NCBI GenBank assembly: GCA_037178625.1
Contig: CM074141.1
Span: forward strand, 558,001 to 622,000
Direction of reading: 5' to 3'
Origin: Skeletonema tropicum
Lineage: Eukaryota; Bacillariophyta; Thalassiosirophyceae; Thalassiosirales; Thalassiosiraceae
DNA: 64,000 nt
Shown here: positions 1-63,589 of the stretch, piece by piece
Position numbering within the stretch: position 1 is the first letter of the stretch
Layout: each line of letters begins with the position of its first letter
The notes under the pieces: generated by a model
What the model was told of the DNA's origin: nothing
Databases searched by the model: none
Seen by the model: the letters and a program-made list of their open reading frames with translations, nothing else
Translations under genes and position numbers: made by a program

Positions 1-2
1 GA

Positions 3-3000: not shown

Positions 3001-6000
3001 CGGTAACATTGATCTCAGCGCTGGCTCGTCTGCTGGAAATACATTTTATGGTGGAAAATTGAACATGAAATCTGGTGAGGGTACCTATTACACCGGAGAA
3101 ATCAATCTCAAAACACCCGATAGTAGACATGGAAGCAGTGGTGCGATCAACATTGCTACAGGAAACAGCGGCACTCAACACGGTCAGAGTGGGCACTTAT
3201 TTCTATCTACTGGAGATGGGTGAGTTGCATGAAGTGTTGAAAGCAAGTATGTATTGAGCTACAATCCATTCTCACACTTACTATACTTCTTTCCCCTCAA
3301 CTCGAACTCTACTTTCTGCTTAGGGGGTACGGTGCGAGTATTTCAATGAAAGCAGGGAAATCAACTGTTCATGAACAGTCCGGCGGCGGAGTTAAGATCG
3401 GTAAGTATGAGATGTTGTTGTGAAATGGTTTGTTGCTTTGTTCCTACTCTTGCTTCGTCCGACACTAATATTTTCCACCCCTTTGACTTGAACTCGAACT
3501 TTACCAGAGGGAGGCGAGGGATCTTCAACCGGCAGCTACAATGGAGGAGATGGAGGAGATGTACACCTCATTGGAGGGCCAAGTGGTGGAAAGAATCCTA
3601 TCAATGATCGAGCTGGCCATATTATACTCGAAGGTGGCAAATCCAGTGCCGTGGGAGTTGGAGGCTCCATAAAAGTCCAATCGGGCTCTGGGTCGGAGAG
3701 TGGAGTTATTCTGATGGAGACTCGAGATGAAAAGTTCGGACGTTCGACAGGACCGATGGCATTCAAAACCGGTAAGGCTGATGATGGAATGAGTGGTGAT
3801 ATTATCTTGTCAACAGGAAGTGCTACTTTGGAGAAGGGGAAGGCTGGTTCGATTAACATCGAAGCTGGTACAATTGGAAGTGTCTTTTCTACTGGAAATT
3901 ACTACACGAATCCTTATAATGCTAAGCGATGGAAATGAGGGTGCCGATGTTTCGTTGATCGCTGGTGCATCTCATGCTGGTATCGGCGGCACAGTCAGTT
4001 TGTCTGGAGGAAGCGGATCATCAGGAGGAGGCAACCTCAATCTTACAGCCGGAGATGGGATGCATGATTCATTAGGAGGTGATACCTTGATCTATGGTGG
4101 TCACAGCGCGTCTACCGGAGGATTGACCGTTCTTCAAGGAGGGACAGGCGCAGGAAAAGGTGGAGATGTCCAATTGCGTGGAGGGACTACTGCAGGGAAC
4201 GGAAGGGGTGGTGACGCTGTTGTCGAATCTGGTGATAGTTTTAGGTCGGGTTCTGGCTCAGTAATCGTACGAAGCGGGGATACTGAGAGTGTCAGTAGCG
4301 GTAACGTGGACCTGACTTCTGGAAGCTCGTCTGCTGCTACTGGAAACGTCAAAGTAGGATCAGGTAAATCTTCACGTGGTACAAGTGGACATGTAGATAT
4401 TGTAAGCGGAGGTGGCGTTGTTTCGGGTAAGATTTCTCTTGCATCGGGTAGAAGTTACTCTGGCAATAGCGGTGATATCGAATTGAGTAGCGGAGAAGTC
4501 GCTGAGTTCGCTTCAATGGGAGATAGTGGCAAGCTATTGCTCTCGACTGCTAAGACTTCATCTACCCGTGGAAGCAGTGGCGAAATCAATATCATGACTG
4601 GAAAATCTGTGAGTGGTGGCAGTGGTGATATCTCTTTAGAAGCTGGTCCAAGCAAAGATGACGGTGGATCTATTGCCATGAAAGCATCCAAATCACAGTC
4701 TATCGGTGGTAGCATTGTCCTGGAGTCTGGATCTTCAGAATACTCCCAAGCAGGTGACATTACCTTGAAAACTGGACACGCCCCTCGTCCACTGACTTCA
4801 TCTGATGGAGGCAACATCAATATTATGGCAAGCTCTATCTCTCAATCGCAGTTTGGGTGGAGGGCAGAAAGGGCTTCAACGAAAGCGATTAATCTTGGGT
4901 TTGATGATGTTTCATCTTCAGGCTCTGAATATCGAAACGTAGCTCTCCAGATAAAGAAGACAAGAGGTTCAATGAGGGTTGTTTCTTCAGTTCCTGGTAA
5001 GTCGTTTGCCCATTTATTACTTTCATTTCAACATTGCCCTGCTTGCATGACTGACACAAAACATCCCTCTTGTGTGATGCATTTCAGTGCAAGTAACAAC
5101 CGTGCAGTATTCGTCCGACGAAAGGATCAAAAAGAACATTAAAGAAGTTGATACTGAAGACCTCCTGGATCGTATGAAGAAAATTGAGCTGCGTGAGTAC
5201 GGCTACACGGATGACTGGAGAGCAGTGAGGGGTCTAGTAAATGACATTCGCGTGCGGGGTGTCATTGCACAAGAATTGAACGAGATCTTCCCTGAGCATA
5301 TTCAAATTTTGAATGAGCTGGAAATGAAAGAGCACGACCTCAAGTTTGATAACTTTCATCAGGTCGACAAGCAGGCATTGATGATGGATATGATCGGGGC
5401 GCTTCAAGCCCACACGAAGAGATTTCAAACACTAGCGGCAGCTCGCGAAAGGACCCGATCGATAGCGATGAGGACTGAGCATGCTGGAGATACCAGAATG
5501 GGCAGTGGGTCTATAGAGATGAGCTCTGGAAGTTCACAGGAAAGCACTAGTGGAGACGTCCGCATTTTTAGTGGAGACGCTTTGAATTCTGGGAATCTCA
5601 ATATTCAAGTCGGCGATGCCGTGAAGGCGCCAGGTCAACTCAAAATTGAAGGCGGATCTTCTTTGACTGGTGCTGGAGGTGCAACCGAGCTTCTATCGGG
5701 TGCTTCGCGGTCTGGAAGTGGGGGCTCACTCACTGTTGGCGGCGGTTCATCTCTTTTGAAAGAAGGTGGCAGCGTTAGTCTAACGTCCGGTTCATCGCAG
5801 GTGGGATCCGGCGGAGTTGTATCTGTGAGCGCAGGGGGCGGTGAGACTGCTGGTGGATCGATTTCATTGGAGGGTGGCTCTAGTCAGAAGTTTGGAGGGT
5901 CATTGCATTTGTCAGGAGGTCAATCTTTTGGCGAGCAAGATGCAGCCGGGGGGTCAATCACTGTACAATCAGGGTCCAGTTCTGAAGCCGAGTCTGGTGA

Positions 6001-9000
6001 GATAACTATTGAGAGTGGTGATGCTGGAATGTTGAGCGGTGATGTATCCATTGCGACTGGGACGAGTGTGCAAGAGACGAGCGGTTCTATGGAGCTAAAG
6101 ACTGGTATGTCATCTACCAGTGGTGCTGGATCAATCGTCATGTCTGTGGGTGATAGCAGTAATGGTATCGGTGGATCACTTGACATGAGTGCTGGCAGGT
6201 CGTCATCACTTTATAGTAATTACGGCTACGGCCTCGCTAACGCTCAAGGTGGTGATGTCAGTATTTCGTCAGGAGACTCTCTAGCCGGTTCAGGAGGTGA
6301 TATGACGCTGAAGTCTGGTCATGGAAGTATCTCTGGTGGCTTTGTGAGTGTTATGGGTGGTAAGGGATTGAATGGACAGGGAGGTTCGATTTCATTGTCG
6401 TCTGGTGAAGGAGGCGAGACATCCAAGTCGGGAGATATCTCTGTGCATACTCCTTCTGAAGGCTTTTCTAGTGGTAGTGGATCGATACTGCTGCAAACTG
6501 GGTCTGCTCCAAGATTGGGAGATGCTATCGGTGGAAGCATGTCTCTTCTAACTGGCTCTGGCGGACCTCTGACATTGTCGGTAGGAGAGTCTACTCAATC
6601 CAATGGAGGACATGCAAGCATGGAAGCAGGCTCGACTGCTGTGGGAAACGCAGCAGCAGCAGGAGGAAATATCAAGTTAGCATCTGGCTCCTCTTTGAAC
6701 GGCGCTGGTGGCGCAGCTGAGTTACTCTCCGGTTCATCTGAATCTGGACGTGGAGGCGACATATTAATATCAGCTGGAAAATCTGAATTGTCTAATGCGG
6801 GCAATCTTCAAGCGTCTGCTGCTTCGTCTAATTTTGGTAAAGGTGGCGATTTAGAATTGCAGTCCGGATCTGGTATCCAAGCAGGAAGTCTAACCCTCAA
6901 TGCAGGAAAATCCCGTGACCTCAATGGTGCAGATTTAACTCTTCGAGGTAGCGAGTCACTCGAAGGAAGTGGCGGAGATGCTAATATTGAAGCGGGGGAT
7001 GGGCTTCTACAAGGAGGCGACATCAATCTGAAAGGAGGTGATTCATCCTCGAATCAAAATGGCGGGGCAATCTTGCTAACGTCTGGGGGAAGTAATGACG
7101 GAGACACCGGTTCAGTCCTACTATCATCAAGCAATTCAGACCTCATTGGAAATAGTGGACAAATTGTCCTCGGCACAGGTGATACAAATGAAGGTGATAG
7201 TGGGAGTATTGAACTGAGAACTGGAAATTCCATATCAAAAGAAGCAGGTGAAATTCACATCTCGAACGGAATGACTGATTTGACAAAAGGATCGGAAATC
7301 ATCATCAAATCGGGATCATCTTTGTCTCAATCAGGAGGAGATGTGAACATATTGTCAGGAGATGGATATTACACGGCAGGTCACATAAACATTCGAGGAG
7401 GAACTTCAACCTATCAAATTGGAAGTGACATCAACGTTGTATCAGGATATAGTGAAAACAAATCAAGTGGAAAGCTTTCATTAAAAACAGCAAACGCGGC
7501 TGAAGGAAGTCCTGGATTCTTCGAGTGGGGACCTCAAGCTTGCAACTGGAAGCGCATCGACAGCAAACTCAGGTGACATATCAATCGCTACTGGACTTTC
7601 CACGTCTGCATCTGCAGGAGACCTTGCTCTCACGGTAGGCTCCAGTGACACGCTTGGCGGCTCCATCACGTTGGAAGCGGGCGCTTCTGGTTCGGCCAAT
7701 GCTGGTTCTGCTACCTTTGTGGCCGGTGACTCTCAATCATCAGATGGCGGTAGCATGACCATAGAAGCAGGAGATGGACCCAATCAGGGCGGAGCAGTGA
7801 CAATCTCGGCTGGCTCGGGCTCGTCAACTGGAGGTGGAATCATGGCCATCACATCAGGAGTCAGCGATGACGGTAGCTCCGGCACAGCCAGCTTGAAGAC
7901 TGCCGATGCTGCTGGCACAAGCGCTGGATCTTCGAGTGGGGACCTCAATCTTGCAACTGGAAGCGCATCGACAGCAAACTCAGGTGACATATCAATCGCT
8001 ACTGGGACTTTCCACGTCTGCATCTGCAGGAGACCTTGCTCTCACGGTAGGCTCCAGTGACACGCTTGGCGGCTCCATCACGTTGGAAGCGGGCGCTTCT
8101 GGTTCGGCCAATGCTGGTTCTGCTACCTTTGTGGCCGGTGACTCTCAATCATCAGATGGCGGTAGCATGACCATAGAAGCAGGAGATGGACCCAATCAGG
8201 GCGGAGCAGTGACAATCTCGGCTGGCTCGGGCTCGTCAACTGGAGGTGGAATCATGGCCATCACATCAGGAGTCAGCGATGACGGTAGCTCCGGCACAGC
8301 CAGCTTGAAGACTGCCGATGCTGCTGGCACAAGCGCTGGATCTTCGAGTGGGGACCTCAATCTTGCAACTGGAAGCGCATCGACAGCAAACTCAGGTGAC
8401 ATATCAATCGCTACTGGACTTTCCACGTCTGCATCTGCAGGAGACCTTGCTCTCACGGTAGGCTCCAGTGACACGCTTGGCGGCTCCATCACGTTGGAAG
8501 CGGGCGCTTCTGGTTCGGCCAATGCTGGTTCTGCTACCTTTGTGGCCGGTGACTCTCAATCATCAGATGGCGGTAGCATGACCATAGAAGCAGGAGATGG
8601 ACCCAATCAGGGCGGAGCAGTGACAATCTCGGCTGGCTCGGGCTCGTCAACTGGAGGTGGAATCATGGCCATCACATCAGGAGTCAGCGATGACGGTAGC
8701 TCCGGCACAGCCAGCTTGAAGACTGCCGATGCTGCTGGCACAAGCGCTGGATCTTCGAGTGGGGACCTCAATCTTGCAACTGGAAGCGCATCGACAGCAA
8801 ACTCAGGTGACATATCAATCGCTACTGGACTTTCCACGTCTGCATCTGCAGGAGACCTTGCTCTCACGGTAGGCTCCAGTGACACGCTTGGCGGCTCCAT
8901 CACGTTGGAAGCGGGCGCTTCTGGTTCGGCCAATGCTGGTTCTGCTACCTTTGTGGCCGGTGACTCTCAATCATCAGATGGCGGTAGCATGACCATAGAA

Positions 9001-12000
9001 GCAGGAGATGGACCCAATCAGGGCGGAGCAGTGACAATCTCGGCTGGCTCGGGCTCGTCAACTGGAGGTGGAATCATGGCCATCACATCAGGAGTCAGCG
9101 ATGACGGTAGCTCCGGCACAGCCAGCTTGAAGACTGCCGATGCTGCTGGCACAAGCGCTGGATCTTCGAGTGGGGACCTCAATCTTGCAACTGGAAGCGC
9201 ATCGACAGCAAACTCAGGTGACATATCAATCGCTACTGGACTTTCCACGTCTGCATCTGCAGGAGACCTTGCTCTCACGGTAGGCTCCAGTGACACGCTT
9301 GGCGGCTCCATCACGTTGGAAGCGGGCGCTTCTGGTTCGGCCAATGCTGGTTCTGCTACCTTTGTGGCCGGTGACTCTCAATCATCAGATGGCGGTAGCA
9401 TGACCATAGAAGCAGGAGATGGACCCAATCAGGGCGGAGCAGTGACAATCTCGGCTGGCTCGGGCTCGTCAACTGGAGGTGGAATCATGGCCATCACATC
9501 AGGAGTCAGCGATGACGGTAGCTCCGGCACAGCCAGCTTGAAGACTGCCGATGCTGCTGGCACAAGCGCTGGATCTTCGAGTGGGGACCTCAATCTTGCA
9601 ACTGGAAGCGCATCGACAGCAAACTCAGGTGACATATCAATCGCTACTGGACTTTCCACGTCTGCATCTGCAGGAGACCTTGCTCTCACGGTAGGCTCCA
9701 GTGACACGCTTGGCGGCTCCATCACGTTGGAAGCGGGCGCTTCTGGTTCGGCCAATGCTGGTTCTGCTACCTTTGTGGCCGGTGACTCTCAATCATCAGA
9801 TGGCGGTAGCATGACCATAGAAGCAGGAGATGGACCCAATCAGGGCGGAGCAGTGACAATCTCGGCTGGCTCGGGCTCGTCAACTGGAGGTGGAATCATG
9901 GCCATCACATCAGGAGTCAGCGATGACGGTAGCTCCGGCACAGCCAGCTTGAAGACTGCCGATGCTGCTGGCACAAGCGCTGGATCTTCGAGTGGGGACC
10001 TCAATCTTGCAACTGGAAGCGCATCGACAGCAAACTCAGGTGACATATCAATCGCTACTGGACTTTCCACGTCTGCATCTGCAGGAGACCTTGCTCTCAC
10101 GGTAGGCTCCAGTGACACGCTTGGCGGCTCCATCACGTTGGAAGCGGGCGCTTCAGGTTCGGCCAATGCTGGTTCTGCTACCTTTGTGGCCGGTGACTCT
10201 CAATCATCAGATGGCGGTAGCATGACCATAGAAGCAGGAGATGGACCCAATCAGGGCGGAGCAGTGACAATCTCGGCTGGCTCGGGCTCGTCAACTGGAG
10301 GTGGAATCATGGCCATCACATCAGGAGTCAGCGATGACGGTAGCTCCGGCACAGCCAGCTTGAAGACTGCCGATGCTGCTGGCACAAGCGCTGGATCTTC
10401 GAGTGGGGACCTCAATCTTGCAACTGGAAGCGCATCGACAGCAAACTCAGGTGACATATCAATCGCTACTGGACTTTCCACGTCTGCATCTGCAGGAGAC
10501 CTTGCTCTCACGGTAGGCTCCAGTGACACGCTTGGCGGCTCCATCACGTTGGAAGCGGGCGCTTCAGGTTCGGCCAATGCTGGTTCTGCTACCTTTGTGG
10601 CCGGTGACTCTCAATCATCAGATGGCGGTAGCATGACCATAGAAGCAGGAGATGGACCCAATCAGGGCGGAGCAGTGACAATCTCGGCTGGCTCGGGCTC
10701 GTCAACTGGAGGTGGAATCATGGCCATCACATCAGGAGTCAGCGATGACGGTAGCTCCGGCACAGCCAGCTTGAAGACTGCCGATGCTGCTGGCACAAGC
10801 GCTGGATCTTCGAGTGGGGACCTCAATCTTGCAACTGGAAGCGCATCGACAGCAAACTCAGGTGACATATCAATCGCTACTGGACTTTCCACGTCTGCAT
10901 CTGCAGGAGACCTTGCTCTCACGGTAGGCTCCAGTGACACGCTTGGCGGCTCCATCACGTTGGAAGCGGGCGCTTCAGGTTCGGCCAATGCTGGTTCTGC
11001 TACCTTTGTGGCCGGTGACTCTCAATCATCAGATGGCGGTAGCATGACCATAGAAGCAGGAGATGGACCCAATCAGGGCGGAGCAGTGACAATCTCGGCT
11101 GGCTCGGGCTCGTCAACTGGAGGTGGAATCATGGCCATCACATCAGGAGTCAGCGATGACGGTAGCTCCGGCACAGCCAGCTTGAAGACTGCCGATGCTG
11201 CTGGCACAAGCGCTGGATCTTCGAGTGGGGACCTCAATCTTGCAACTGGAAGCGCATCGACAGCAAACTCAGGTGACATATCAATCGCTACTGGACTTTC
11301 CACGTCTGCATCTGCAGGAGACCTTGCTCTCACGGTAGGCTCCAGTGACACGCTTGGCGGCTCCATCACGTTGGAAGCGGGCGCTTCAGGTTCGGCCAAT
11401 GCTGGTTCTGCTACCTTTGTGGCCGGTGACTCTCAATCATCAGATGGCGGTAGCATGACCATAGAAGCAGGAGATGGACCCAATCAGGGCGGAGCAGTGA
11501 CAATCTCGGCTGGCTCGGGCTCGTCAACTGGAGGTGGAATCATGGCCATCACATCAGGAGTCAGCGATGACGGTAGCTCCGGCACAGCCAGCTTGAAGAC
11601 TGCCGATGCTGCTGGCACAAGCGCTGGATCTTCGAGTGGGGACCTCAATCTTGCAACTGGAAGCGCATCGACAGCAAACTCAGGTGACATATCAATCGCT
11701 ACTGGACTTTCCACGTCTGCATCTGCAGGAGACCTTGCTCTCACGGTAGGCTCCAGTGACACGCTTGGCGGCTCCATCACGTTGGAAGCGGGCGCTTCAT
11801 GGTTCGGCCAATGCTGGTTCTGCTACCTTTGTGGCCGGTGACTCTCAATCATCAGATGGCGGTAGCATGACCATAGAAGCAGGAGATGGACCCAATCAGG
11901 GCGGAGCAGTGACAATCTCGGCTGGCTCGGGCTCGTCAACTGGAGGTGGAATCATGGCCATCACATCAGGAGTCAGCGATGACGGTAGCTCCGGCACAGC

Positions 12001-15000
12001 CAGCTTGAAGACTGCCGATGCTGCTGGCACAAGCGCTGGATCTTCGAGTGGGGACCTCAATCTTGCAACTGGAAGCGCATCGACAGCAAACTCAGGTGAC
12101 ATATCAATCGCTACTGGACTTTCCACGTCTGCATCTGCAGGAGACCTTGCTCTCACGGTAGGCTCCAGTGACACGCTTGGCGGCTCCATCACGTTGGAAG
12201 CGGGCGCTTCTGGTTCGGCCAATGCTGGTTCTGCTACCTTTGTGGCCGGTGACTCTCAATCATCAGATGGCGGTAGCATGACCATAGAAGCAGGAGATGG
12301 ACCCAATCAGGGCGGAGCAGTGACAATCTCGGCTGGCTCGGGCTCGTCAACTGGAGGTGGAATCATGGCCATCACATCAGGAGTCAGCGATGACGGTAGC
12401 TCCGGCACAGCCAGCTTGAAGACTGCCGATGCTGCTGGCACAAGCGCTGGATCTTCGAGTGGGGACCTCAATCTTGCAACTGGAAGCGCATCGACAGCAA
12501 ACTCAGGTGACATATCAATCGCTACTGGACTTTCCACGTCTGCATCTGCAGGAGACCTTGCTCTCACGGTAGGCTCCAGTGACACGCTTGGCGGCTCCAT
12601 CACGTTGGAAGCGGGCGCTTCTGGTTCGGCCAATGCTGGTTCTGCTACCTTTGTGGCCGGTGACTCTCAATCATCAGATGGCGGTAGCATGACCATAGAA
12701 GCAGGAGATGGACCCAATCAGGGCGGAGCAGTGACAATCTCGGCTGGCTCGGGCTCGTCAACTGGAGGTGGAATCATGGCCATCACATCAGGAGTCAGCG
12801 ATGACGGTAGCTCCGGCACAGCCAGCTTGAAGACTGCCGATGCTGCTGGCACAAGCGCTGGATCTTCGAGTGGGGACCTCAATCTTGCAACTGGAAGCGC
12901 ATCGACAGCAAACTCAGGTGACATATCAATCGCTACTGGACTTTCCACGTCTGCATCTGCAGGAGACCTTGCTCTCACGGTAGGCTCCAGTGACACGCTT
13001 GGCGGCTCCATCACGTTGGAAGCGGGCGCTTCAGGTTCGGCCAATGCTGGTTCTGCTACCTTTGTGGCCGGTGACTCTCAATCATCAGATGGCGGTAGCA
13101 TGACCATAGAAGCAGGAGATGGACCCAATCAGGGCGGAGCAGTGACAATCTCGGCTGGCTCGGGCTCGTCAACTGGAGGTGGAATCATGGCCATCACATC
13201 AGGAGTCAGCGATGACGGTAGCTCCGGCACAGCCAGCTTGAAGACTGCCGATGCTGCTGGCACAAGCGCTGGATCTTCGAGTGGGGACCTCAATCTTGCA
13301 ACTGGAAGCGCATCGACAGCAAACTCAGGTGACATATCAATCGCTACTGGACTTTCCACGTCTGCATCTGCAGGAGACCTTGCTCTCACGGTAGGCTCCA
13401 GTGACACGCTTGGCGGCTCCATCACGTTGGAAGCGGGCGCTTCTGGTTCGGCCAATGCTGGTTCTGCTACCTTTGTGGCCGGTGACTCTCAATCATCAGA
13501 TGGCGGTAGCATGACCATAGAAGCAGGAGATGGACCCAATCAGGGCGGAGCAGTGACAATCTCGGCTGGCTCGGGCTCGTCAACTGGAGGTGGAATCATG
13601 GCCATCACATCAGGAGTCAGCGATGACGGTAGCTCCGGCACAGCCAGCTTGAAGACTGCCGATGCTGCTGGCACAAGCGCTGGATCTTCGAGTGGGGACC
13701 TCAATCTTGCAACTGGAAGCGCATCGACAGCAAACTCAGGTGACATATCAATCGCTACTGGACTTTCCACGTCTGCATCTGCAGGAGACCTTGCTCTCAC
13801 GGTAGGCTCCAGTGACACGCTTGGCGGCTCCATCACGTTGGAAGCGGGCGCTTCTGGTTCGGCCAATGCTGGTTCTGCTACCTTTGTGGCCGGTGACTCT
13901 CAATCATCAGATGGCGGTAGCATGACCATAGAAGCAGGAGATGGACCCAATCAGGGCGGAGCAGTGACAATCTCGGCTGGCTCGGGCTCGTCAACTGGAG
14001 GTGGAATCATGGCCATCACATCAGGAGTCAGCGATGACGGTAGCTCCGGCACAGCCAGCTTGAAGACTGCCGATGCTGCTGGCACAAGCGCTGGATCTTC
14101 GAGTGGGGACCTCAATCTTGCAACTGGAAGCGCATCGACAGCAAACTCAGGTGACATATCAATCGCTACTGGACTTTCCACGTCTGCATCTGCAGGAGAC
14201 CTTGCTCTCACGGTAGGCTCCAGTGACACGCTTGGCGGCTCCATCACGTTGGAAGCGGGCGCTTCTGGTTCGGCCAATGCTGGTTCTGCTACCTTTGTGG
14301 CCGGTGACTCTCAATCATCAGATGGCGGTAGCATGACCATAGAAGCAGGAGATGGACCCAATCAGGGCGGAGCAGTGACAATCTCGGCTGGCTCGGGCTC
14401 GTCAACTGGAGGTGGAATCATGGCCATCACATCAGGAGTCAGCGATGACGGTAGCTCCGGCACAGCCAGCTTGAAGACTGCCGATGCTGCTGGCACAAGC
14501 GCTGGATCTTCGAGTGGGGACCTCAATCTTGCAACTGGAAGCGCATCGACAGCAAACTCAGGTGACATATCAATCGCTACTGGACTTTCCACGTCTGCAT
14601 CTGCAGGAGACCTTGCTCTCACGGTAGGCTCCAGTGACACGCTTGGCGGCTCCATCACGTTGGAAGCGGGCGCTTCTGGTTCGGCCAATGCTGGTTCTGC
14701 TACCTTTGTGGCCGGTGACTCTCAATCATCAGATGGCGGTAGCATGACCATAGAAGCAGGAGATGGACCCAATCAGGGCGGAGCAGTGACAATCTCGGCT
14801 GGCTCGGGCTCGTCAACTGGAGGTGGAATCATGGCCATCACATCAGGAGTCAGCGATGACGGTAGCTCCGGCACAGCCAGCTTGAAGACTGCCGATGCTG
14901 CTGGCACAAGCGCTGGATCTTCGAGTGGGGACCTCAATCTTGCAACTGGAAGCGCATCGACAGCAAACTCAGGTGACATATCAATCGCTACTGGACTTTC

Positions 15001-36000: not shown

Positions 36001-39000
36001 ACGGTAGGCTCCAGTGACACGCTCGGCGGCTCCATCACGTTGGAAGCGGGCGCTTCTGGTTCGGCCAATGCTGGTTCTGCTACCTTTGTGGCCGGTGACT
36101 CTCAATCATCAGATGGCGGTAGCATGACCATAGAAGCAGGAGATGGACCCAATCAGGGCGGAGCAGTGACAATCTCGGCTGGCTCGGGCTCGTCAACTGG
36201 AGGTGGAATCATGGCCATCACATCAGGAGTCAGCGATGACGGTAGCTCCGGCACAGCCAGCTTGAAGACTGCCGATGCTGCTGGCACGAGCGCTGGATCT
36301 TCGAGTGGGGACCTCAATCTTGCAACTGGAAGCGCATCGACAGCAAACTCAGGTGACATATCAATCGCTACTGGACTTTCCACATCTGCATCTGCAGGAG
36401 ACCTTGCTCTCACGGTAGGCTCCAGTGACACGCTCGGCGGCTCCATCACGTTGGAAGCGGGCGCTTCTGGTTCGGCCAATGCTGGTTCTGCTACCTTTGT
36501 GGCCGGTGACTCTCAATCATCAGATGGCGGTAGCATGACCATAGAAGCAGGAGATGGACCCAATCAGGGCGGAGCAGTGACAATCTCGGCTGGCTCGGGC
36601 TCGTCAACTGGAGGTGGAATCATGGCCATCACATCAGGAGTCAGCGATGACGGTAGCTCCGGCACAGCCAGCTTGAAGACTGCCGATGCTGCTGGCACGA
36701 GCGCTGGATCTTCGAGTGGGGACCTCAATCTTGCAACTGGAAGCGCATCGACAGCAAACTCAGGTGACATATCAATCGCTACTGGACTTTCCACATCTGC
36801 ATCTGCAGGAGACCTTGCTCTCACGGTAGGCTCCAGTGACACGCTCGGCGGCTCCATCACGTTGGAAGCGGGCGCTTCTGGTTCGGCCAATGCTGGTTCT
36901 GCTACCTTTGTGGCCGGTGACTCTCAATCATCAGATGGCGGTAGCATGACCATAGAAGCAGGAGATGGACCCAATCAGGGCGGAGCAGTGACAATCTCGG
37001 CTGGCTCGGGCTCGTCAACTGGAGGTGGAATCATGGCCATCACATCAGGAGTCAGCGATGACGGTAGCTCCGGCACAGCCAGCTTGAAGACTGCCGATGC
37101 TGCTGGCACGAGCGCTGGATCTTCGAGTGGGGACCTCAATCTTGCAACTGGAAGCGCATCGACAGCAAACTCAGGTGACATATCAATCGCTACTGGACTT
37201 TCCACATCTGCATCTGCAGGAGACCTTGCTCTCACGGTAGGCTCCAGTGACACGCTCGGCGGCTCCATCACGTTGGAAGCGGGCGCTTCTGGTTCGGCCA
37301 ATGCTGGTTCTGCTACCTTTGTGGCCGGTGACTCTCAATCATCAGATGGCGGTAGCATGACCATAGAAGCAGGAGATGGACCCAATCAGGGCGGAGCAGT
37401 GACAATCTCGGCTGGCTCGGGCTCGTCAACTGGAGGTGGAATCATGGCCATCACATCAGGAGTCAGCGATGACGGTAGCTCCGGCACAGCCAGCTTGAAG
37501 ACTGCCGATGCTGCTGGCACGAGCGCTGGATCTTCGAGTGGGGACCTCAATCTTGCAACTGGAAGCGCATCGACAGCAAACTCAGGTGACATATCAATCG
37601 CTACTGGACTTTCCACATCTGCATCTGCAGGAGACCTTGCTCTCACGGTAGGCTCCAGTGACACGCTCGGCGGCTCCATCACGTTGGAAGCGGGCGCTTC
37701 TGGTTCGGCCAATGCTGGTTCTGCTACCTTTGTGGCCGGTGACTCTCAATCATCAGATGGCGGTAGCATGACCATAGAAGCAGGAGATGGACCCAATCAG
37801 GGCGGAGCAGTGACAATCTCGGCTGGCTCGGGCTCGTCAACTGGAGGTGGAATCATGGCCATCACATCAGGAGTCAGCGATGACGGTAGCTCCGGCACAG
37901 CCAGCTTGAAGACTGCCGATGCTGCTGGCACGAGCGCTGGATCTTCGAGTGGGGACCTCAATCTTGCAACTGGAAGCGCATCGACAGCAAACTCAGGTGA
38001 CATATCAATCGCTACTGGACTTTCCACATCTGCATCTGCAGGAGACCTTGCTCTCACGGTAGGCTCCAGTGACACGCTCGGCGGCTCCATCACGTTGGAA
38101 GCGGGCGCTTCTGGTTCGGCCAATGCTGGTTCTGCTACCTTTGTGGCCGGTGACTCTCAATCATCAGATGGCGGTAGCATGACCATAGAAGCAGGAGATG
38201 GACCCAATCAGGGCGGAGCAGTGACAATCTCGGCTGGCTCGGGCTCGTCAACTGGAGGTGGAATCATGGCCATCACATCAGGAGTCAGCGATGACGGTAG
38301 CTCCGGCACAGCCAGCTTGAAGACTGCCGATGCTGCTGGCACGAGCGCTGGATCTTCGAGTGGGGACCTCAATCTTGCAACTGGAAGCGCATCGACAGCA
38401 AACTCAGGTGACATATCAATCGCTACTGGACTTTCCACATCTGCATCTGCAGGAGACCTTGCTCTCACGGTAGGCTCCAGTGACACGCTCGGCGGCTCCA
38501 TCACGTTGGAAGCGGGCGCTTCTGGTTCGGCCAATGCTGGTTCTGCTACCTTTGTGGCCGGTGACTCTCAATCATCAGATGGCGGTAGCATGACCATAGA
38601 AGCAGGAGATGGACCCAATCAGGGCGGAGCAGTGACAATCTCGGCTGGCTCGGGCTCGTCAACTGGAGGTGGAATCATGGCCATCACATCAGGAGTCAGC
38701 GATGACGGTAGCTCCGGCACAGCCAGCTTGAAGACTGCCGATGCTGCTGGCACGAGCGCTGGATCTTCGAGTGGGGACCTCAATCTTGCAACTGGAAGCG
38801 CATCGACAGCAAACTCAGGTGACATATCAATCGCTACTGGACTTTCCACATCTGCATCTGCAGGAGACCTTGCTCTCACGGTAGGCTCCAGTGACACGCT
38901 CGGCGGCTCCATCACGTTGGAAGCGGGCGCTTCTGGTTCGGCCAATGCTGGTTCTGCTACCTTTGTGGCCGGTGACTCTCAATCATCAGATGGCGGTAGC

Positions 39001-42000
39001 ATGACCATAGAAGCAGGAGATGGACCCAATCAGGGCGGAGCAGTGACAATCTCGGCTGGCTCGGGCTCGTCAACTGGAGGTGGAATCATGGCCATCACAT
39101 CAGGAGTCAGCGATGACGGTAGCTCCGGCACAGCCAGCTTGAAGACTGCCGATGCTGCTGGCACGAGCGCTGGATCTTCGAGTGGGGACCTCAATCTTGC
39201 AACTGGAAGCGCATCGACAGCAAACTCAGGTGACATATCAATCGCTACTGGACTTTCCACATCTGCATCTGCAGGAGACCTTGCTCTCACGGTAGGCTCC
39301 AGTGACACGCTCGGCGGCTCCATCACGTTGGAAGCGGGCGCTTCTGGTTCGGCCAATGCTGGTTCTGCTACCTTTGTGGCCGGTGACTCTCAATCATCAG
39401 ATGGCGGTAGCATGACCATAGAAGCAGGAGATGGACCCAATCAGGGCGGAGCAGTGACAATCTCGGCTGGCTCGGGCTCGTCAACTGGAGGTGGAATCAT
39501 GGCCATCACATCAGGAGTCAGCGATGACGGTAGCTCCGGCACAGCCAGCTTGAAGACTGCCGATGCTGCTGGCACGAGCGCTGGATCTTCGAGTGGGGAC
39601 CTCAATCTTGCAACTGGAAGCGCATCGACAGCAAACTCAGGTGACATATCAATCGCTACTGGACTTTCCACATCTGCATCTGCAGGAGACCTTGCTCTCA
39701 CGGTAGGCTCCAGTGACACGCTCGGCGGCTCCATCACGTTGGAAGCGGGCGCTTCTGGTTCGGCCAATGCTGGTTCTGCTACCTTTGTGGCCGGTGACTC
39801 TCAATCATCAGATGGCGGTAGCATGACCATAGAAGCAGGAGATGGACCCAATCAGGGCGGAGCAGTGACAATCTCGGCTGGCTCGGGCTCGTCAACTGGA
39901 GGTGGAATCATGGCCATCACATCAGGAGTCAGCGATGACGGTAGCTCCGGCACAGCCAGCTTGAAGACTGCCGATGCTGCTGGCACGAGCGCTGGATCTT
40001 CGAGTGGGGACCTCAATCTTGCAACTGGAAGCGCATCGACAGCAAACTCAGGTGACATATCAATCGCTACTGGACTTTCCACATCTGCATCTGCAGGAGA
40101 CCTTGCTCTCACGGTAGGCTCCAGTGACACGCTCGGCGGCTCCATCACGTTGGAAGCGGGCGCTTCTGGTTCGGCCAATGCTGGTTCTGCTACCTTTGTG
40201 GCCGGTGACTCTCAATCATCAGATGGCGGTAGCATGACCATAGAAGCAGGAGATGGACCCAATCAGGGCGGAGCAGTGACAATCTCGGCTGGCTCGGGCT
40301 CGTCAACTGGAGGTGGAATCATGGCCATCACATCAGGAGTCAGCGATGACGGTAGCTCCGGCACAGCCAGCTTGAAGACTGCCGATGCTGCTGGCACGAG
40401 CGCTGGATCTTCGAGTGGGGACCTCAATCTTGCAACTGGAAGCGCATCGACAGCAAACTCAGGTGACATATCAATCGCTACTGGACTTTCCACATCTGCA
40501 TCTGCAGGAGACCTTGCTCTCACGGTAGGCTCCAGTGACACGCTCGGCGGCTCCATCACGTTGGAAGCGGGCGCTTCTGGTTCGGCCAATGCTGGTTCTG
40601 CTACCTTTGTGGCCGGTGACTCTCAATCATCAGATGGCGGTAGCATGACCATAGAAGCAGGAGATGGACCCAATCAGGGCGGAGCAGTGACAATCTCGGC
40701 TGGCTCGGGCTCGTCAACTGGAGGTGGAATCATGGCCATCACATCAGGAGTCAGCGATGACGGTAGCTCCGGCACAGCCAGCTTGAAGACTGCCGATGCT
40801 GCTGGCACGAGCGCTGGATCTTCGAGTGGGGACCTCAATCTTGCAACTGGAAGCGCATCGACAGCAAACTCAGGTGACATATCAATCGCTACTGGACTTT
40901 CCACATCTGCATCTGCAGGAGACCTTGCTCTCACGGTAGGCTCCAGTGACACGCTCGGCGGCTCCATCACGTTGGAAGCGGGCGCTTCTGGTTCGGCCAA
41001 TGCTGGTTCTGCTACCTTTGTGGCCGGTGACTCTCAATCATCAGATGGCGGTAGCATGACCATAGAAGCAGGAGATGGACCCAATCAGGGCGGAGCAGTG
41101 ACAATCTCGGCTGGCTCGGGCTCGTCAACTGGAGGTGGAATCATGGCCATCACATCAGGAGTCAGCGATGACGGTAGCTCCGGCACAGCCAGCTTGAAGA
41201 CTGCCGATGCTGCTGGCACGAGCGCTGGATCTTCGAGTGGGGACCTCAATCTTGCAACTGGAAGCGCATCGACAGCAAACTCAGGTGACATATCAATCGC
41301 TACTGGACTTTCCACATCTGCATCTGCAGGAGACCTTGCTCTCACGGTAGGCTCCAGTGACACGCTCGGCGGCTCCATCACGTTGGAAGCGGGCGCTTCT
41401 GGTTCGGCCAATGCTGGTTCTGCTACCTTTGTGGCCGGTGACTCTCAATCATCAGATGGCGGTAGCATGACCATAGAAGCAGGAGATGGACCCAATCAGG
41501 GCGGAGCAGTGACAATCTCGGCTGGCTCGGGCTCGTCAACTGGAGGTGGAATCATGGCCATCACATCAGGAGTCAGCGATGACGGTAGCTCCGGCACAGC
41601 CAGCTTGAAGACTGCCGATGCTGCTGGCACGAGCGCTGGATCTTCGAGTGGGGACCTCAATCTTGCAACTGGAAGCGCATCGACAGCAAACTCAGGTGAC
41701 ATATCAATCGCTACTGGACTTTCCACATCTGCATCTGCAGGAGACCTTGCTCTCACGGTAGGCTCCAGTGACACGCTCGGCGGCTCCATCACGTTGGAAG
41801 CGGGCGCTTCTGGTTCGGCCAATGCTGGTTCTGCTACCTTTGTGGCCGGTGACTCTCAATCATCAGATGGCGGTAGCATGACCATAGAAGCAGGAGATGG
41901 ACCCAATCAGGGCGGAGCAGTGACAATCTCGGCTGGCTCGGGCTCGTCAACTGGAGGTGGAATCATGGCCATCACATCAGGAGTCAGCGATGACGGTAGC

Positions 42001-45000
42001 TCCGGCACAGCCAGCTTGAAGACTGCCGATGCTGCTGGCACGAGCGCTGGATCTTCGAGTGGGGACCTCAATCTTGCAACTGGAAGCGCATCGACAGCAA
42101 ACTCAGGTGACATATCAATCGCTACTGGACTTTCCACATCTGCATCTGCAGGAGACCTTGCTCTCACGGTAGGCTCCAGTGACACGCTCGGCGGCTCCAT
42201 CACGTTGGAAGCGGGCGCTTCTGGTTCGGCCAATGCTGGTTCTGCTACCTTTGTGGCCGGTGACTCTCAATCATCAGATGGCGGTAGCATGACCATAGAA
42301 GCAGGAGATGGACCCAATCAGGGCGGAGCAGTGACAATCTCGGCTGGCTCGGGCTCGTCAACTGGAGGTGGAATCATGGCCATCACATCAGGAGTCAGCG
42401 ATGACGGTAGCTCCGGCACAGCCAGCTTGAAGACTGCCGATGCTGCTGGCACGAGCGCTGGATCTTCGAGTGGGGACCTCAATCTTGCAACTGGAAGCGC
42501 ATCGACAGCAAACTCAGGTGACATATCAATCGCTACTGGACTTTCCACATCTGCATCTGCAGGAGACCTTGCTCTCACGGTAGGCTCCAGTGACACGCTC
42601 GGCGGCTCCATCACGTTGGAAGCGGGCGCTTCTGGTTCGGCCAATGCTGGTTCTGCTACCTTTGTGGCCGGTGACTCTCAATCATCAGATGGCGGTAGCA
42701 TGACCATAGAAGCAGGAGATGGACCCAATCAGGGCGGAGCAGTGACAATCTCGGCTGGCTCGGGCTCGTCAACTGGAGGTGGAATCATGGCCATCACATC
42801 AGGAGTCAGCGATGACGGTAGCTCCGGCACAGCCAGCTTGAAGACTGCCGATGCTGCTGGCACGAGCGCTGGATCTTCGAGTGGGGACCTCAATCTTGCA
42901 ACTGGAAGCGCATCGACAGCAAACTCAGGTGACATATCAATCGCTACTGGACTTTCCACATCTGCATCTGCAGGAGACCTTGCTCTCACGGTAGGCTCCA
43001 GTGACACGCTCGGCGGCTCCATCACGTTGGAAGCGGGCGCTTCTGGTTCGGCCAATGCTGGTTCTGCTACCTTTGTGGCCGGTGACTCTCAATCATCAGA
43101 TGGCGGTAGCATGACCATAGAAGCAGGAGATGGACCCAATCAGGGCGGAGCAGTGACAATCTCGGCTGGCTCGGGCTCGTCAACTGGAGGTGGAATCATG
43201 GCCATCACATCAGGAGTCAGCGATGACGGTAGCTCCGGCACAGCCAGCTTGAAGACTGCCGATGCTGCTGGCACGAGCGCTGGATCTTCGAGTGGGGACC
43301 TCAATCTTGCAACTGGAAGCGCATCGACAGCAAACTCAGGTGACATATCAATCGCTACTGGACTTTCCACATCTGCATCTGCAGGAGACCTTGCTCTCAC
43401 GGTAGGCTCCAGTGACACGCTCGGCGGCTCCATCACGTTGGAAGCGGGCGCTTCTGGTTCGGCCAATGCTGGTTCTGCTACCTTTGTGGCCGGTGACTCT
43501 CAATCATCAGATGGCGGTAGCATGACCATAGAAGCAGGAGATGGACCCAATCAGGGCGGAGCAGTGACAATCTCGGCTGGCTCGGGCTCGTCAACTGGAG
43601 GTGGAATCATGGCCATCACATCAGGAGTCAGCGATGACGGTAGCTCCGGCACAGCCAGCTTGAAGACTGCCGATGCTGCTGGCACGAGCGCTGGATCTTC
43701 GAGTGGGGACCTCAATCTTGCAACTGGAAGCGCATCGACAGCAAACTCAGGTGACATATCAATCGCTACTGGACTTTCCACATCTGCATCTGCAGGAGAC
43801 CTTGCTCTCACGGTAGGCTCCAGTGACACGCTCGGCGGCTCCATCACGTTGGAAGCGGGCGCTTCTGGTTCGGCCAATGCTGGTTCTGCTACCTTTGTGG
43901 CCGGTGACTCTCAATCATCAGATGGCGGTAGCATGACCATAGAAGCAGGAGATGGACCCAATCAGGGCGGAGCAGTGACAATCTCGGCTGGCTCGGGCTC
44001 GTCAACTGGAGGTGGAATCATGGCCATCACATCAGGAGTCAGCGATGACGGTAGCTCCGGCACAGCCAGCTTGAAGACTGCCGATGCTGCTGGCACGAGC
44101 GCTGGATCTTCGAGTGGGGACCTCAATCTTGCAACTGGAAGCGCATCGACAGCAAACTCAGGTGACATATCAATCGCTACTGGACTTTCCACATCTGCAT
44201 CTGCAGGAGACCTTGCTCTCACGGTAGGCTCCAGTGACACGCTCGGCGGCTCCATCACGTTGGAAGCGGGCGCTTCTGGTTCGGCCAATGCTGGTTCTGC
44301 TACCTTTGTGGCCGGTGACTCTCAATCATCAGATGGCGGTAGCATGACCATAGAAGCAGGAGATGGACCCAATCAGGGCGGAGCAGTGACAATCTCGGCT
44401 GGCTCGGGCTCGTCAACTGGAGGTGGAATCATGGCCATCACATCAGGAGTCAGCGATGACGGTAGCTCCGGCACAGCCAGCTTGAAGACTGCCGATGCTG
44501 CTGGCACGAGCGCTGGATCTTCGAGTGGGGACCTCAATCTTGCAACTGGAAGCGCATCGACAGCAAACTCAGGTGACATATCAATCGCTACTGGACTTTC
44601 CACATCTGCATCTGCAGGAGACCTTGCTCTCACGGTAGGCTCCAGTGACACGCTCGGCGGCTCCATCACGTTGGAAGCGGGCGCTTCTGGTTCGGCCAAT
44701 GCTGGTTCTGCTACCTTTGTGGCCGGTGACTCTCAATCATCAGATGGCGGTAGCATGACCATAGAAGCAGGAGATGGACCCAATCAGGGCGGAGCAGTGA
44801 CAATCTCGGCTGGCTCGGGCTCGTCAACTGGAGGTGGAATCATGGCCATCACATCAGGAGTCAGCGATGACGGTAGCTCCGGCACAGCCAGCTTGAAGAC
44901 TGCCGATGCTGCTGGCACGAGCGCTGGATCTTCGAGTGGGGACCTCAATCTTGCAACTGGAAGCGCATCGGACAGCAAACTCAGGTGACATATCAATCGC

Positions 45001-47850
45001 TACTGGACTTTTCCACATCTGCATCTGCAGGAGACCTTGCTCTCACGGTAGGCTCCAGTGACACGCTCGGCGGCTCCATCACGTTGGAAGCGGGCGCTTC
45101 TGGTTCGGCCAATGCTGGTTCTGCTACCTTTGTGGCCGGTGACTCTCAATCATCAGATGGCGGTAGCATGACCATAGAAGCAGGAGATGGACCCAATCAG
45201 GGCGGAGCAGTAGGACAATCTCGGCTGGCTCGGGCTCGTCAACTGGAGGTGGAATCATGGCCATCACATCAGGAGTCAGCGATGACGGTAGCTCCGGCAC
45301 AGCCAGCTTGAAGACTGCCGATGCTGCTGGCACAAGCGCTGGATCTTCGAGTGGGGACCTCAATCTTGCAACTGGAAGCGCATCGACAGCAAACTCAGGT
45401 GACATATCAATCGCTACTGGACTTTCCACGTCTGCATCTGCAGGAGACCTTGCTCTCACGGTAGGCTCCAGTGACACGCTTGGCGGCTCCATCACGTTGG
45501 AAGCGGGCGCTTCTGGTTCGGCCAATGCTGGTTTGCTACCTTTGTGGCCGGTGACTCTCAATCATCAGATGGCGGTAGCATGACCATAGAAGCAGGAGAT
45601 GGACCCAATCAGGGCGGAGCAGTGACAAATCTCGGCTGGCTCGGGCTCGTCAACTGGAGGTGGAATCATGGCCATCACATCAGGAGTCAGCGATGGACGG
45701 TAGCTCCGGCACAGCCAGCTTGAAGACTGCCGATGCTGCTGGCACGAGCGCTGGATCTTCGAGTGGGGACCTCAATCTTGCAACTGGAAGCGCATCGACA
45801 GCAAACTCAGGTGACATATCAATCGCTACTGGACTTTCACACGTCTGCATCTGCAGGAGACCTTGCTCTCACGGTAGGCTCCAGTGACACGCTTCGGCGG
45901 CTCCATCACGTTGGAAGCGGGCGCTTCTGGTTCGGCCAATGCTGGTTCTGCTACCTTTGTGGCCGGTGACTCTCAATCATCAGATGGCGGTAGCATGACC
46001 ATAGAAGCAGGAGATGGACCCAATCAGGGCGGAGCAGTGACAATCTCGGCTGGCTCGGGCTCGTCAACTGGAGGTGGAATCATGGCCATCACATCAGGAG
46101 TCAGCGATGACGGTTAGCTCCCGGCACAGCCAGCTTGAAGACTGCCGATGCTGCTGGCACGAGCGCTGGATCTTCGAGTGGGGACCTCAATCTTGCAAAA
46201 CTGGAAGCGCATCGACAGCAAACTCAGGTGACATATCAATCGCTACTGGACTTTCCACGTCTGCATCTGCAGGAGACCTTGCTCTCACGGTAGGCTCCAG
46301 TGACACGCTCGGCGGCTCCATCACGTTGGAAGCGGGCGCTTCTGGTTCGGCCAATGCTGGTTCTGCTACCTTTGTGGCCGGTGACTCGCAATCATCAGAT
46401 GGCGGTAGCATGACCATAGAAGCAGGAGATGGACCCAATCAGGGCGGAGCAGTGACAATCTCGGCTGGCTCGGGCTCGTCAACTGGAGGTGGAATCATGG
46501 CCATCACATCAGGAGTCAGCGATGACGGTAGCTCCGGCACAGCCAGCTTGAAGACTGCCGATGCTGCTGGCACGAGCGCTGGATCTTCGAGTGGGGACCT
46601 CAATCTTGCAACTGGAAGCGCATCGACAGCAAACTCAGGTGACATATCAATCGCTACTGGACTTTCCATCTGCATCTGCAGGAGACCTTGCTCTCACGGT
46701 AGGCTCCAGTGACACGCTCGGCGGCTCCATCACGTTGGAAGCGGGCGCTTCTGGTTCGGCCAATGGGTTCTGCTACCTTTGTGGCCGGTGACTCTCAATC
46801 ATCAGATGGCGGTAGCATGACCATAGAAGCAGGAGATGGACCCAATCAGGGCGGAGCAGTGACCAATCTCGGCTGGCTCGGGCTCGTCAACTGGAGGTGG
46901 AATCATGGCCATCACATCAGGAGTCAGCGATGACGGTAGCTCCGGCACAGCCAGCTTGAAGACTGCCGATGCTGCTGGCACGAGCGCTGGATCTTCGAGT
47001 GGGGACTCAATCTTGCAACTGGAAGCGCATCGACAGCAAACTCAGGTGACATATCAATCGCTACTGGACTTTCCACATCTGCATCTGCAGGAGACCTTGC
47101 TCTCACGGTAGGCTCCAGTGACACGCTTGGCGGCTCCATCACGTTGGAAGCGGGCGCTTCTGGTTCGGGGGGCCAATGCTGGTTCTGCTACCTTTGTGGC
47201 CGGTGACTCTCAATCATCAGATGGCGGTAGCATGACCATAGAAGCAGGAGATGGACCCAATCAGGGCGGAGCAGTGACAATCTCGGCTGGGGGGGGGCTC
47301 GGGCTCGTCAACTGGAGGTGGAATCATGGCCATCACATCAGGAGGTCAGCGATGACGGTAGCTCCGGCACAGCCAGCTTGAAGACTGCCGATGCTAGGCT
47401 GGCACAGGGGGGGAGCGCTGGATCTTCGAGTGGGGACCTCCAATCTTGCAAACTGGAAGCGCATCGACAGCAAACTCAGGTGACATATCAATCGCTACTG
47501 GAACTTTCCACAATCTGCATCTGCAGGAGACCTTGCTCTCCACGGTAGGCTCCCCCCAGTGACAACGCTCGGCGGCTCCATCACGTTGCGAAGCGGGCGC
47601 TTCTAGGTTCGGCACCCAATGCTGGTCTGCTTACCTTTGTGGCCGGTGACTCTCAATCATCAGATGCGGTAGCATGACCATAGAAGCAGGAGATGGAGGA
47701 CCCAATCAGGGCGGAGCAGTGACAATCTCGGCTGGCTCGGGCTCGTCAACTGGAGGTGGAATCATGGCCATCACATCAGGAGTCAGCGATGACGGTAGTA
47801 GCTACCGGCACAGCATCTGAAGACTGCGATTGCTGCTGGCACGAGCGCTG
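3..47850 (+). CDS. Giant S74 (ICA-domain) beta-solenoid repeat protein, partial at both ends
   Basis: The gene is open from base 3, so it starts upstream of the window, and it ends in an assembly gap. Proposed exons: 3-285, 380-752, 879-1180, 1286-1714, 1826-2398, 2488-2703, 2805-3219, 3324-3400, 3508-4996 (one frame break near 3882-3939) and 5088 onward. Translation across every listed junction keeps the repeat pattern GGxIxLxSG-SSxxxxSG. Exons 1-9 encode about 1,390 residues; exon 10 adds an S74 domain, about 690 residues of degenerate rungs and about 98 copies of a 137-residue unit, so more than 14,600 residues are visible. Regular short Gly/Ser rungs with alternating hydrophobic residues suggest a beta-solenoid fibre. 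S74 domains are known to trimerise and self-cleave in phage tail spikes and in MYRF. No signal peptide or membrane segment is visible because both termini are missing. Function is not established; an extracellular or wall fibre is an inference. Frame breaks at 7517, 8004 and nine sites in the array are treated as sequence errors. Confidence 0.8.
286..379 (+). other. Intron 1 of the giant S74 gene (94 bp, phase 1)
   Basis: The donor is GTAAGT at 286 and the acceptor CCACAG ends at 379. Splicing joins ...SSGDV to LIASAKAG and keeps the repeat frame; reading through gives a stop at about 308. Confidence 0.85.
753..878 (+). other. Intron 2 of the giant S74 gene (126 bp, phase 2)
   Basis: The donor is GTAAGT at 753 and the acceptor TTGGCAG ends at 878. 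The joined sequence reads GGGSAG-GSIEMKVG. Without splicing the frame stops at 754. Confidence 0.85.
1181..1285 (+). other. Intron 3 of the giant S74 gene (105 bp, phase 1)
   Basis: The donor is GTGAGT at 1181 and the acceptor TGTAG ends at 1285. The length is a multiple of three with no stop, so retention would keep the frame, but the intron translation breaks the Gly/Ser pattern while splicing gives SGAI-VIATAASG. Confidence 0.8.
1715..1825 (+). other. Intron 4 of the giant S74 gene (111 bp, phase 1)
   Basis: The donor is GTAAGT at 1715 and the acceptor TATAG ends at 1825. The joined sequence reads DAGTI-ALMTGNST. Read-through stops at 1728. Confidence 0.85.
2399..2487 (+). other. Intron 5 of the giant S74 gene (89 bp, phase 1)
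   Basis: The donor is GTGAGT at 2399 and the acceptor TTCAG ends at 2487. Splicing connects SRDMA to SSGGSVLLQGGEG. The following exon 6 (2488-2703) has no internal Met and is easily missed by ORF callers. Confidence 0.85.
2704..2804 (+). other. Intron 6 of the giant S74 gene (101 bp, phase 1)
   Basis: The donor is GTAAGT at 2704 and the acceptor ATCAG ends at 2804. The joined sequence reads TSSESS-SGGELKIQTAKA. Confidence 0.85.
3220..3323 (+). other. Intron 7 of the giant S74 gene (104 bp, phase 2)
   Basis: The donor is GTGAGT at 3220 and the acceptor CTTAG ends at 3323. Splicing gives LFLSTGDG-GYGASISMKAG; the unspliced frame stops at 3221. Confidence 0.85.
3401..3507 (+). other. Intron 8 of the giant S74 gene (107 bp, phase 1)
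   Basis: The donor is GTAAGT at 3401 and the acceptor TACCAG ends at 3507. It follows a 77-bp exon (3324-3400). The joined sequence reads GGGVKI-EGGEGSSTGS. Confidence 0.85.
3882..3939 (+). other. Frame break in exon 9: one-base error or 58-bp micro-intron
   Basis: The frame used from 3508 stops at 3936-3938, while the frame that continues the repeat pattern (GADVSLIAGASHAG) is shifted by one base. A 58-bp GT-AG segment (3882-3939) would restore the frame, but its donor GTCTTT is poor and it is much shorter than the other introns. A single-base insertion is at least as likely: exon 9 is 1489 nt, one more than a multiple of three, although both flanking introns are phase 1. Confidence 0.5.
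4997..5087 (+). other. Intron 9 of the giant S74 gene (91 bp, phase 1)
   Basis: The donor is GTAAGT at 4997 and the acceptor TTTCAG ends at 5087. Splicing joins RVVSSVP to VQVTTVQYSSDER, placing the S74 catalytic serine nine codons into exon 10. Confidence 0.85.
5111..5450 (+). other. Peptidase S74 / intramolecular chaperone autoprocessing domain
   Basis: This segment of exon 10 encodes an S74 domain of about 110 residues. It opens with YSSDERIKKNI: the serine of SD (codon 5114) and the lysine five residues later (codon 5129) match the spacing of the Ser/Lys dyad known from endosialidase (S911/K916) and MYRF (S587/K592). The motif RGVIAQELNEIFPEHI (about 5257-5304) matches the conserved GxIAQE block of the family, and a helical LMMDMIGALQAHTKRF tail follows, as expected for the trimer-forming helix. 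Known family members trimerise and then cut just before the catalytic serine. The domain is internal here, so cleavage would separate the ~1,390-residue N-terminal solenoid from the long C-terminal array. Confidence 0.85.
5480..7481 (+). repeat. Degenerate Gly/Ser solenoid rungs between S74 domain and array
   Basis: About 670 codons hold diverged 14-30-residue rungs with the theme SGSSxxGxGGSIxLxSG (for example GSIEMSSGSS, GGSVSLTSGSSQ, GGDVSISSGDS). They resemble exons 1-9 but are not tandem copies of each other at DNA level, in sharp contrast with the array that follows. Confidence 0.8.
7482..47850 (+). repeat. Tandem array of ~98 copies of a 411-bp coding unit
   Basis: The unit is 411 bp and encodes 137 residues made of nine rungs of 15, 14, 15, 15, 14, 15, 15, 19 and 15 residues (for example SSDTLGGSITLEAG, DSQSSDGGSMTIEAG, SASTANSGDISIATG). 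Equivalent points at 7784 and 44784 are 37,000 bp apart, which equals 90 x 411 plus 10, and exactly ten single-base insertions can be found between them. Seven poorer copies follow, so about 98 in all, the last cut by the gap. The junction with degenerate sequence is abrupt: the first partial unit carries several differences up to about 7540, after which units are essentially identical. Copy number in an assembly of such an array is only approximate. Confidence 0.9.
44969..47850 (+). other. Low-quality, indel-rich end of the array next to the gap
   Basis: From an extra G at about 44970 onward the unit is broken by insertions and deletions: extra AG at about 45212, a lost C near 45533, GGTTAGCTCCCGG near 46114, G runs near 47167, 47290 and 47407. 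Density rises towards the gap at 47851. This looks like uncorrected read ends, not biological decay, so no reading frame should be trusted here. Confidence 0.85.
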
Positions 47851-54522: not shown

Positions 54523-54586
54523 CCCTCCATTGTCTCCAATTTTCTATTCTATCATTGACATCATCGTCGTCGTCGTTACGTGTCCT

Positions 54587-58973: not shown

Positions 58974-58976
58974 TAG

Positions 58977-63575: not shown

Positions 63576-63589
63576 AAGGGGTACTCAAT

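Follow-up and report, generated by a model that had tools for sequence, protein, structure and literature searches.

Near-identical 411-bp coding repeats in the diatom Skeletonema tropicum: possible parts of one split gene for a phage-tail-fibre-like protein

Can a single gene of a unicellular alga be built largely from near-identical repeats, and if so, what kind of protein would it encode? The question is raised by a stretch of 64,000 nucleotides (the window) from the diatom Skeletonema tropicum (GenBank assembly GCA_037178625.1, contig CM074141.1, positions 558,001 to 622,000 of the forward strand; C15:558001-622000 in the contig numbering used here), for which an earlier reading of the sequence, the original prediction, had described ~98 near-identical units of 411 bp, apparently in a single exon of at least 40 kb. 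The genome searched comprises 78.4 Mb in 125 contigs. The answer favoured here, with a probability of about one in two, is that the locus represents one gene, now split or mis-joined, for a secreted fibre protein of the phage-tail-fibre type.

The repeat unit and its count in the assembly were recovered as predicted. Tandem Repeats Finder places array 1 on the forward strand at 7512-47850 with a period of 411, 98.0 copies and 99% matches, and 98 exact occurrences of one 20-mer from the unit give 97 spacings, of which 81 are 411, nine are 412 and seven have other values. The bookkeeping of 37,000 bp as 90 periods plus ten one-base insertions is exact as well (7749-44749). Each unit corresponds to 137 amino acids forming nine strand repeats of ~15 residues, with the strand motifs starting at residues 1, 15, 30, 45, 64, 79, 94, 108 and 123; one forward frame of the unit is open over all 137 codons, and the other two contain several stops. 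As the residues preceding array 1 (KLSLKTANAAEGSPG) are a diverged copy of the corresponding part of the unit (ASLKTADAAGTSAG), the array appears to have grown in register from a pre-existing repeat stretch. At either edge, the array keeps register with the diverged strand repeats that flank it, and the ~15-residue periodicity is the same before, inside and after the array. The open frame, the unit length of 3 x 137 and the strand repeat shared by both flanks support the claim that the array is coding in character, and a non-coding satellite was rejected on the same grounds as the main explanation.

A comparison of 132 clean units, 90 from array 1 and 42 from a second array beyond the window (array 2, see below), with the seven error-rich units at the tail of array 1 left out, adds to this picture. 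The clean units contain no in-frame stops and no deletions, and 11 of their 411 columns are variable. They also contain 12 one-base insertions. In 11 of these the site is a variable column and the extra base is that column's other allele (binomial ~2e-12). These 11 are consensus artefacts that hold both alleles and not lesions of the gene; their position on polymorphic columns and the identity of the added base led to the rejection of real frameshifts at these 11 sites, and nine of the ten insertions in the original prediction are explained in the same way. The sole exceptional insertion lies in the first counted unit, near 8004. The alleles of array 1 shift gradually, at column 171 around units 30-45 and at columns 318 and 267 around units 48-58. 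The data suggest that reads from different units were mixed in the consensus, and the assembled unit number and uniformity are therefore not trustworthy.

From 44749 onwards, the last seven units of array 1 show an increasing error load, with spacings of 407-442 and inserted runs of G, and this tail resembles an unpolished contig end. Array 1 then ends at 47851-48350, where the assembly has exactly 500 N, a gap that the original prediction does not mention. Such round numbers of N usually stand for a scaffolding join of unknown size. The right end of array 1 lies beyond the assembled sequence. Two claims of the original prediction are therefore not supported by the assembly: the uninterrupted exon of at least 40 kb, as the gap and a further 17.9 kb with mobile elements separate array 1 from array 2, and the protein size, as the figure of more than 14,600 residues for the protein was built on a copy number taken from an allele-mixing consensus of an array that runs into a gap.

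Upstream of array 1, a dynamic-programming gene model independently recovered the predicted ten exons with nine GT-AG introns, the latter being 89-126 bp long. The model starts with an ATG at window coordinate -513 (C15:557487), encodes a short hydrophobic N-terminus (MRFNLSLLALAATV) and continues on the forward strand through exon 1 (in-window part 1..285), exons 2-5 (380-752, 879-1180, 1286-1714 and 1826-2398) and exons 6-9 (2488-2703, 2805-3219, 3324-3400 and 3508-4996). Exons 2-9 encode glycine/serine-rich strand repeats of ~15 residues, and exon 10 before the array (5088..7516) encodes an intramolecular-chaperone (ICA) domain followed by ~680 residues of non-identical strand repeats. After correction, 2,381 codons run without a stop into the first array residues across single-base breaks near 3912 (in exon 9) and 7517; Gly makes up 21% of this stretch and Ser 17%, and a strand-like motif recurs every ~15 residues. 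That the array belongs to exon 10 is thus borne out in part: it follows exon 10 directly, but the two are in frame only across the single-base break at ~7517. Two further introns proposed by the same model were rejected, one (5225-5362) because it would remove conserved ICA residues and the other (7984-8029) because it merely steps round the break near 8004.

The link to phage tail fibres comes from the ICA (Peptidase_S74) domain at 5114..5464 on the forward strand. Its Pfam match (5114-5299, E 7e-13, 49.1 bits against a cut-off of 22) was also found in a genome-wide scan, and a PHROG tail fibre matches with an E-value of 2.6e-20. Among solved structures the best match is the ICA domain of myelin regulatory factor (MYRF; 7dc3, E 1.5e-11 over 108 residues), followed by a phage tail fibre at E 0.095. 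The catalytic dyad reads S-SDERIK, with the Ser codon at 5114 and the Lys codon at 5129-5131, and has the same spacing as S587/K592 of MYRF and S911/K916 of endoNF (PMC8326128). MYRF is cut between P586 and S587, and either S587A or K592A abolishes this cleavage (PMC8326128). By the same arrangement, self-cleavage is predicted just before the Ser codon at 5114. Ser13 and Lys18 of P0001 are invariant in all five aligned proteins. Three other S74 matches exist in the genome, one on C5 and two on C11.

With 7,987 candidates scored in each case, at least 10 relatives were obtained from the first protein search and at least 39 from a profile search; a search with the full-length model, limited to the ICA region, gave none among 640 candidates at E <= 0.001. 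A dyad survey of the 16 relatives listed with PF13884 and the query found both Ser and Lys in 15 of these 17 S74 proteins. Strand repeats follow the ICA domain in 11 of the 12 proteins classed with the query, the query counted (P0019 ends before that point). This class includes the stramenopile relatives from Aphanomyces euteiches (P0005) and Phaeothamnion confervicola (P0018) as well as P0003, P0004, P0006, P0013-P0017 and P0019. In P0020, P0027, P0037, P0040 and P0042 the ICA domain is found at or near the C-terminus. S74 relatives are also present in 34 viral contigs.

Beyond the gap, a block of 17.9 kb (in-window part 48351..64000, continuing to about window coordinate 66208) is occupied by other sequences. 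A zinc-finger gene with Zf_WRKY19 repeats (48351-48733, reverse strand) is cut by the 500-N gap. It is followed by a segmental duplication (49111-52544 and 54819-58249; ~3.4 kb, 99.8% identity), each copy of which lies at or near an array of 96-bp repeats. A Copia-type element at 58249-64043, the last 43 bases of which are past the window, has a 1,508-codon open frame with RVT_2, TTTCA on both sides and long terminal repeats (LTRs) whose aligned parts are 100% identical; the 5' LTR alone also carries a tandem duplication of 254 bp. The piece that abuts array 2 measures 156 bp, has at least 38 other copies in the genome and is labelled LINE-like on our own reading of its TAA-repeat end. All four inspected copies of it continue past the point where it meets array 2, so the junction is a truncated insertion or a break and not a join through shared sequence.

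Array 2 starts at about window coordinate 66208, shows up to 99.4% identity over 7.8 kb and has 43 unit anchors, the last at window coordinate 83637. Its last unit leads in frame into diverged strand repeats and then into a C-terminal domain, with the stop ending at 84539. The ends of the gene are thus ~85 kb apart and flank the two arrays. The C-terminal domain has one match in the genome, none in Pfam and a weak one to PHROG 18251 (E 4e-6), and tblastn found no phage records with it at E <= 0.001. Contig C26 was rejected as a candidate for the unassembled right end of array 1, since its only unit sequences are diverged fragments.

The unit (12.2 kDa, pI 4.05) consists of 33% Ser and Thr, with 12 acidic residues, one Lys, no Arg and no Cys, and no N-glycosylation sequon occurs within its 137 residues. 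Proteomics of tryptic peptides, which had been suggested as a check, is poorly suited to it, as a unit with one Lys and no Arg yields a tryptic peptide of 137 residues. A two-unit piece matched no Pfam family at E <= 1, including the YadA head and stalk profiles; the 14-15-residue motif may resemble the heads of YadA-like trimeric adhesins. When the strand repeat was used as a probe (150 of 348 first-look candidates scored), each of the 19 matches listed fell either within this locus or in a fragment of the array.

How much weight can a single fibre gene bear? Several observations count against it. Both AlphaFold models are poor, with a mean predicted local distance difference test (pLDDT) score of 41 for the first and 44 for the second; the second shows, with low confidence, one strand per ~15 residues, which speaks in favour, and a trimeric beta-helix would go beyond what these two models give. 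The catalytic Ser is replaced in two of the 17 surveyed proteins (by Glu in P0013 and by Ala in P0018), and the signal peptide, and with it secretion, was read by eye from the first residues. The constraint argument for selection on the protein is weak: the variable columns shared within array 1 (171, 267, 318 and 351) are all synonymous, where 28-33% would be expected for random changes, but column 383 causes one amino-acid change there, and with both arrays pooled only five of the 11 variable columns are synonymous. A better case is made by the lack of stops and deletions. Further objections come from the block between the gap and array 2 with its mobile elements, from the LINE-array junction, where no shared sequence points to a mere mis-join, and from three single-base frame breaks near 3912, 7517 and 8004, none of which is at a polymorphic site. 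These last points lead to a competing account in which the array of a former fibre gene was split by mobile elements and frame breaks, and its units are now a coding-derived satellite that seeds copies elsewhere. The identical aligned LTR parts of the Copia element, the truncated LINE-like piece against array 2 and the presence of unit copies at four other places with 98-99% identity, and of others at 69-96%, would all fit such decay. Against it stand the 132 clean units, the ~2,360 exon codons before the array, open save for the single-base breaks near 3912 and 7517, and the register kept at both array junctions. The breaks lie at or next to short one-base runs, where consensus errors are common, and may be such errors; for the break near 3912, a genome search for another copy to compare it with returned one match, the locus itself. 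Decay is a possible outcome, though less probable than the single gene. The reference copy may be intact or not: the 17.9-kb block and the three frame breaks speak against intactness, and the clean units and in-register ends speak for it.

An alternative that shifts the problem from the genome to its assembly is that the real array is shorter or much longer, with its number and uniformity arising from a consensus of mis-registered noisy reads and with arrays 1 and 2 being partly the same units placed twice. The 11 insertions holding both alleles, the gradual allele changes, the raw-looking tail before the gap and the agreement in alleles between the right part of array 1 and array 2's body are what such a process would leave behind. 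The edges of array 2, on the other hand, hold variants missing from array 1 (columns 25, 31 and 369-374), which makes the two outer ends look real, and had the array been short enough for reads to span, the assembler would probably have left no gap; taken together, an assembly product is unlikely. Less likely still is a pair of genes, the upstream one holding the ICA domain and array 1, the downstream one having its own start and made up of array 2 and the C-terminal domain. The open frame around array 2, 2,113 codons long, does begin 111 bp before the array, inside the LINE-like piece, which contains an ATG, and both edges of array 2 are diverged, but in frame and register the 5' and 3' flanks are as expected of a single ancestral gene.

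If the single fibre gene is accepted as a working model, its origin and product can be pictured as follows. A nine-strand block of 137 residues was amplified in tandem behind the ICA domain, and unequal exchange and gene conversion would keep the units near-identical and allow the length to change fast. Three chains would join through the ICA domain, which would then cut the chain just before the Ser. Of the two resulting parts, the N-terminal one would have ~1,566 residues, and the C-terminal one would begin with the ICA domain and include the array. Both trimerisation and self-cleavage are inferred from MYRF and phage fibres. The array would serve as an extender, stiff and acidic, and keep the C-terminal domain at a distance from the base. 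If each strand repeat adds ~0.48 nm, with nine strands per unit the fibre would measure ~0.4-0.6 micrometre (0.42 for 98 units and 0.61 for 141 units). The 17.9-kb block would represent mobile-element insertions within the array, and because of this the reference copy may not make the full protein.

The model can be compared with several known systems. With MYRF of animals (PDB 7dc3) the protein would share an internal ICA domain with a Ser-Lys dyad spaced five apart as well as the best structural match, but repeats flank the ICA domain here instead, and neither a DNA-binding domain, which in MYRF precedes the ICA domain, nor any other Pfam family passed the cut-off in a scan of ten exon pieces (exon 8 was not scanned alone, and a domain split between exons could escape). 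Phage tailspikes and tail fibres (endoNF; PHROG 1980) have the homologous ICA domain and a strand-repeat shaft before it. The phage ICA domain is usually C-terminal and released, whereas here it is followed by ~680 residues and then the array. The stramenopile S74 proteins with strand repeats also carry these after the ICA domain; they differ in being pieces of 321-916 residues with no near-identical array on viewing (unscored), and P0013 and P0018 are without the Ser. The extender function is inferred by analogy with MpAFP of Marinomonas primoryensis, a protein of 1.5 MDa with ~120 repeats identical at the DNA level and proposed to form an extender rod of ~0.6 um (PMC4083281). Genes of this type often appear as two contigs (PMC4083281). 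Many near-identical repeats form the bulk of both proteins, with 98 plus 43 unit anchors here, subject to the assembly caveats. MpAFP is nonetheless bacterial, and its 104-residue repeats are Ig-like, with no ICA domain named in the account consulted (PMC4083281); an Ig-like fold for the diatom unit finds no Pfam match at E <= 1 for the two-unit piece, the model of which is the one with a mean pLDDT of 41.

In its fullest form the proposal states that a diatom makes a self-cleaving trimeric fibre protein of ~2 MDa (~20,000 residues or more), in which the maturation domain of a virus tail fibre was repurposed in the middle of the chain and the length depends on how many copies of a 137-residue block one exon of more than 40 kb contains, so that it could evolve quickly between strains. 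This full version is rather doubtful. What would be new is the combination, since adhesins with giant repeats, ICA domains inside the chain (MYRF) and algal proteins of great length (PKZILLA) are each already known; no S74 or strand-repeat giant gene in a diatom was found among the literature matches listed (titles and abstract openings). The description of the protein as extreme for a unicellular alga needs to be qualified in the same sense: its size would not be unique, as the haptophyte PKZILLA "gigasynthases" are known, which have 56 modules between them (PMC12300183). If expressed, the locus would hold one of the longest coding exons and encode one of the longest proteins in an alga, would be a diatom analogue of the bacterial giant adhesins, and would show the self-cleaving chaperone domain of phages and MYRF put to a third use, midway along a fibre of extracellular type. 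On a more practical level, the locus shows how a coding array can thwart assembly and produce spurious frameshifts where its columns are polymorphic, a pattern worth checking in other "broken" repeat genes.

Pieces of the array unit are also found in other contexts. Three near-identical genes on C17, C7 and C22 (open reading frames of 549, 549 and 686 residues) have 1.67, 1.67 and 2.67 array units inserted in frame; the C17 gene, the only one scanned, is of the BspA-type leucine-rich repeat family (PF13306, E 6e-27). This can be read as an array fragment captured by another gene that was then duplicated. Some 322 kb upstream of the locus, C15:234905-236161 holds ~3 array units in other DNA. 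They start at nearly the point of the unit where they also stop (columns 248 and 262), the pattern that insertion of a small circle made of whole units would leave. Diverged fragments of the unit, at 69-96% identity, are present on C5, C7 (two duplicated clusters), C14, C17, C19, C20, C26 and C117, and those on C14, C17, C19 and C117 have longer flanks in common, as members of a repeat family would. Unrelated to the array, the silicon-transporter family has nine matches in the genome, as befits a silicifying organism and most probably a diatom, and five of them lie on C9 with E < 1e-243 and within 31 kb (C9:400091-430881); one of 14 control genomes gave a match, below the family cut-off.
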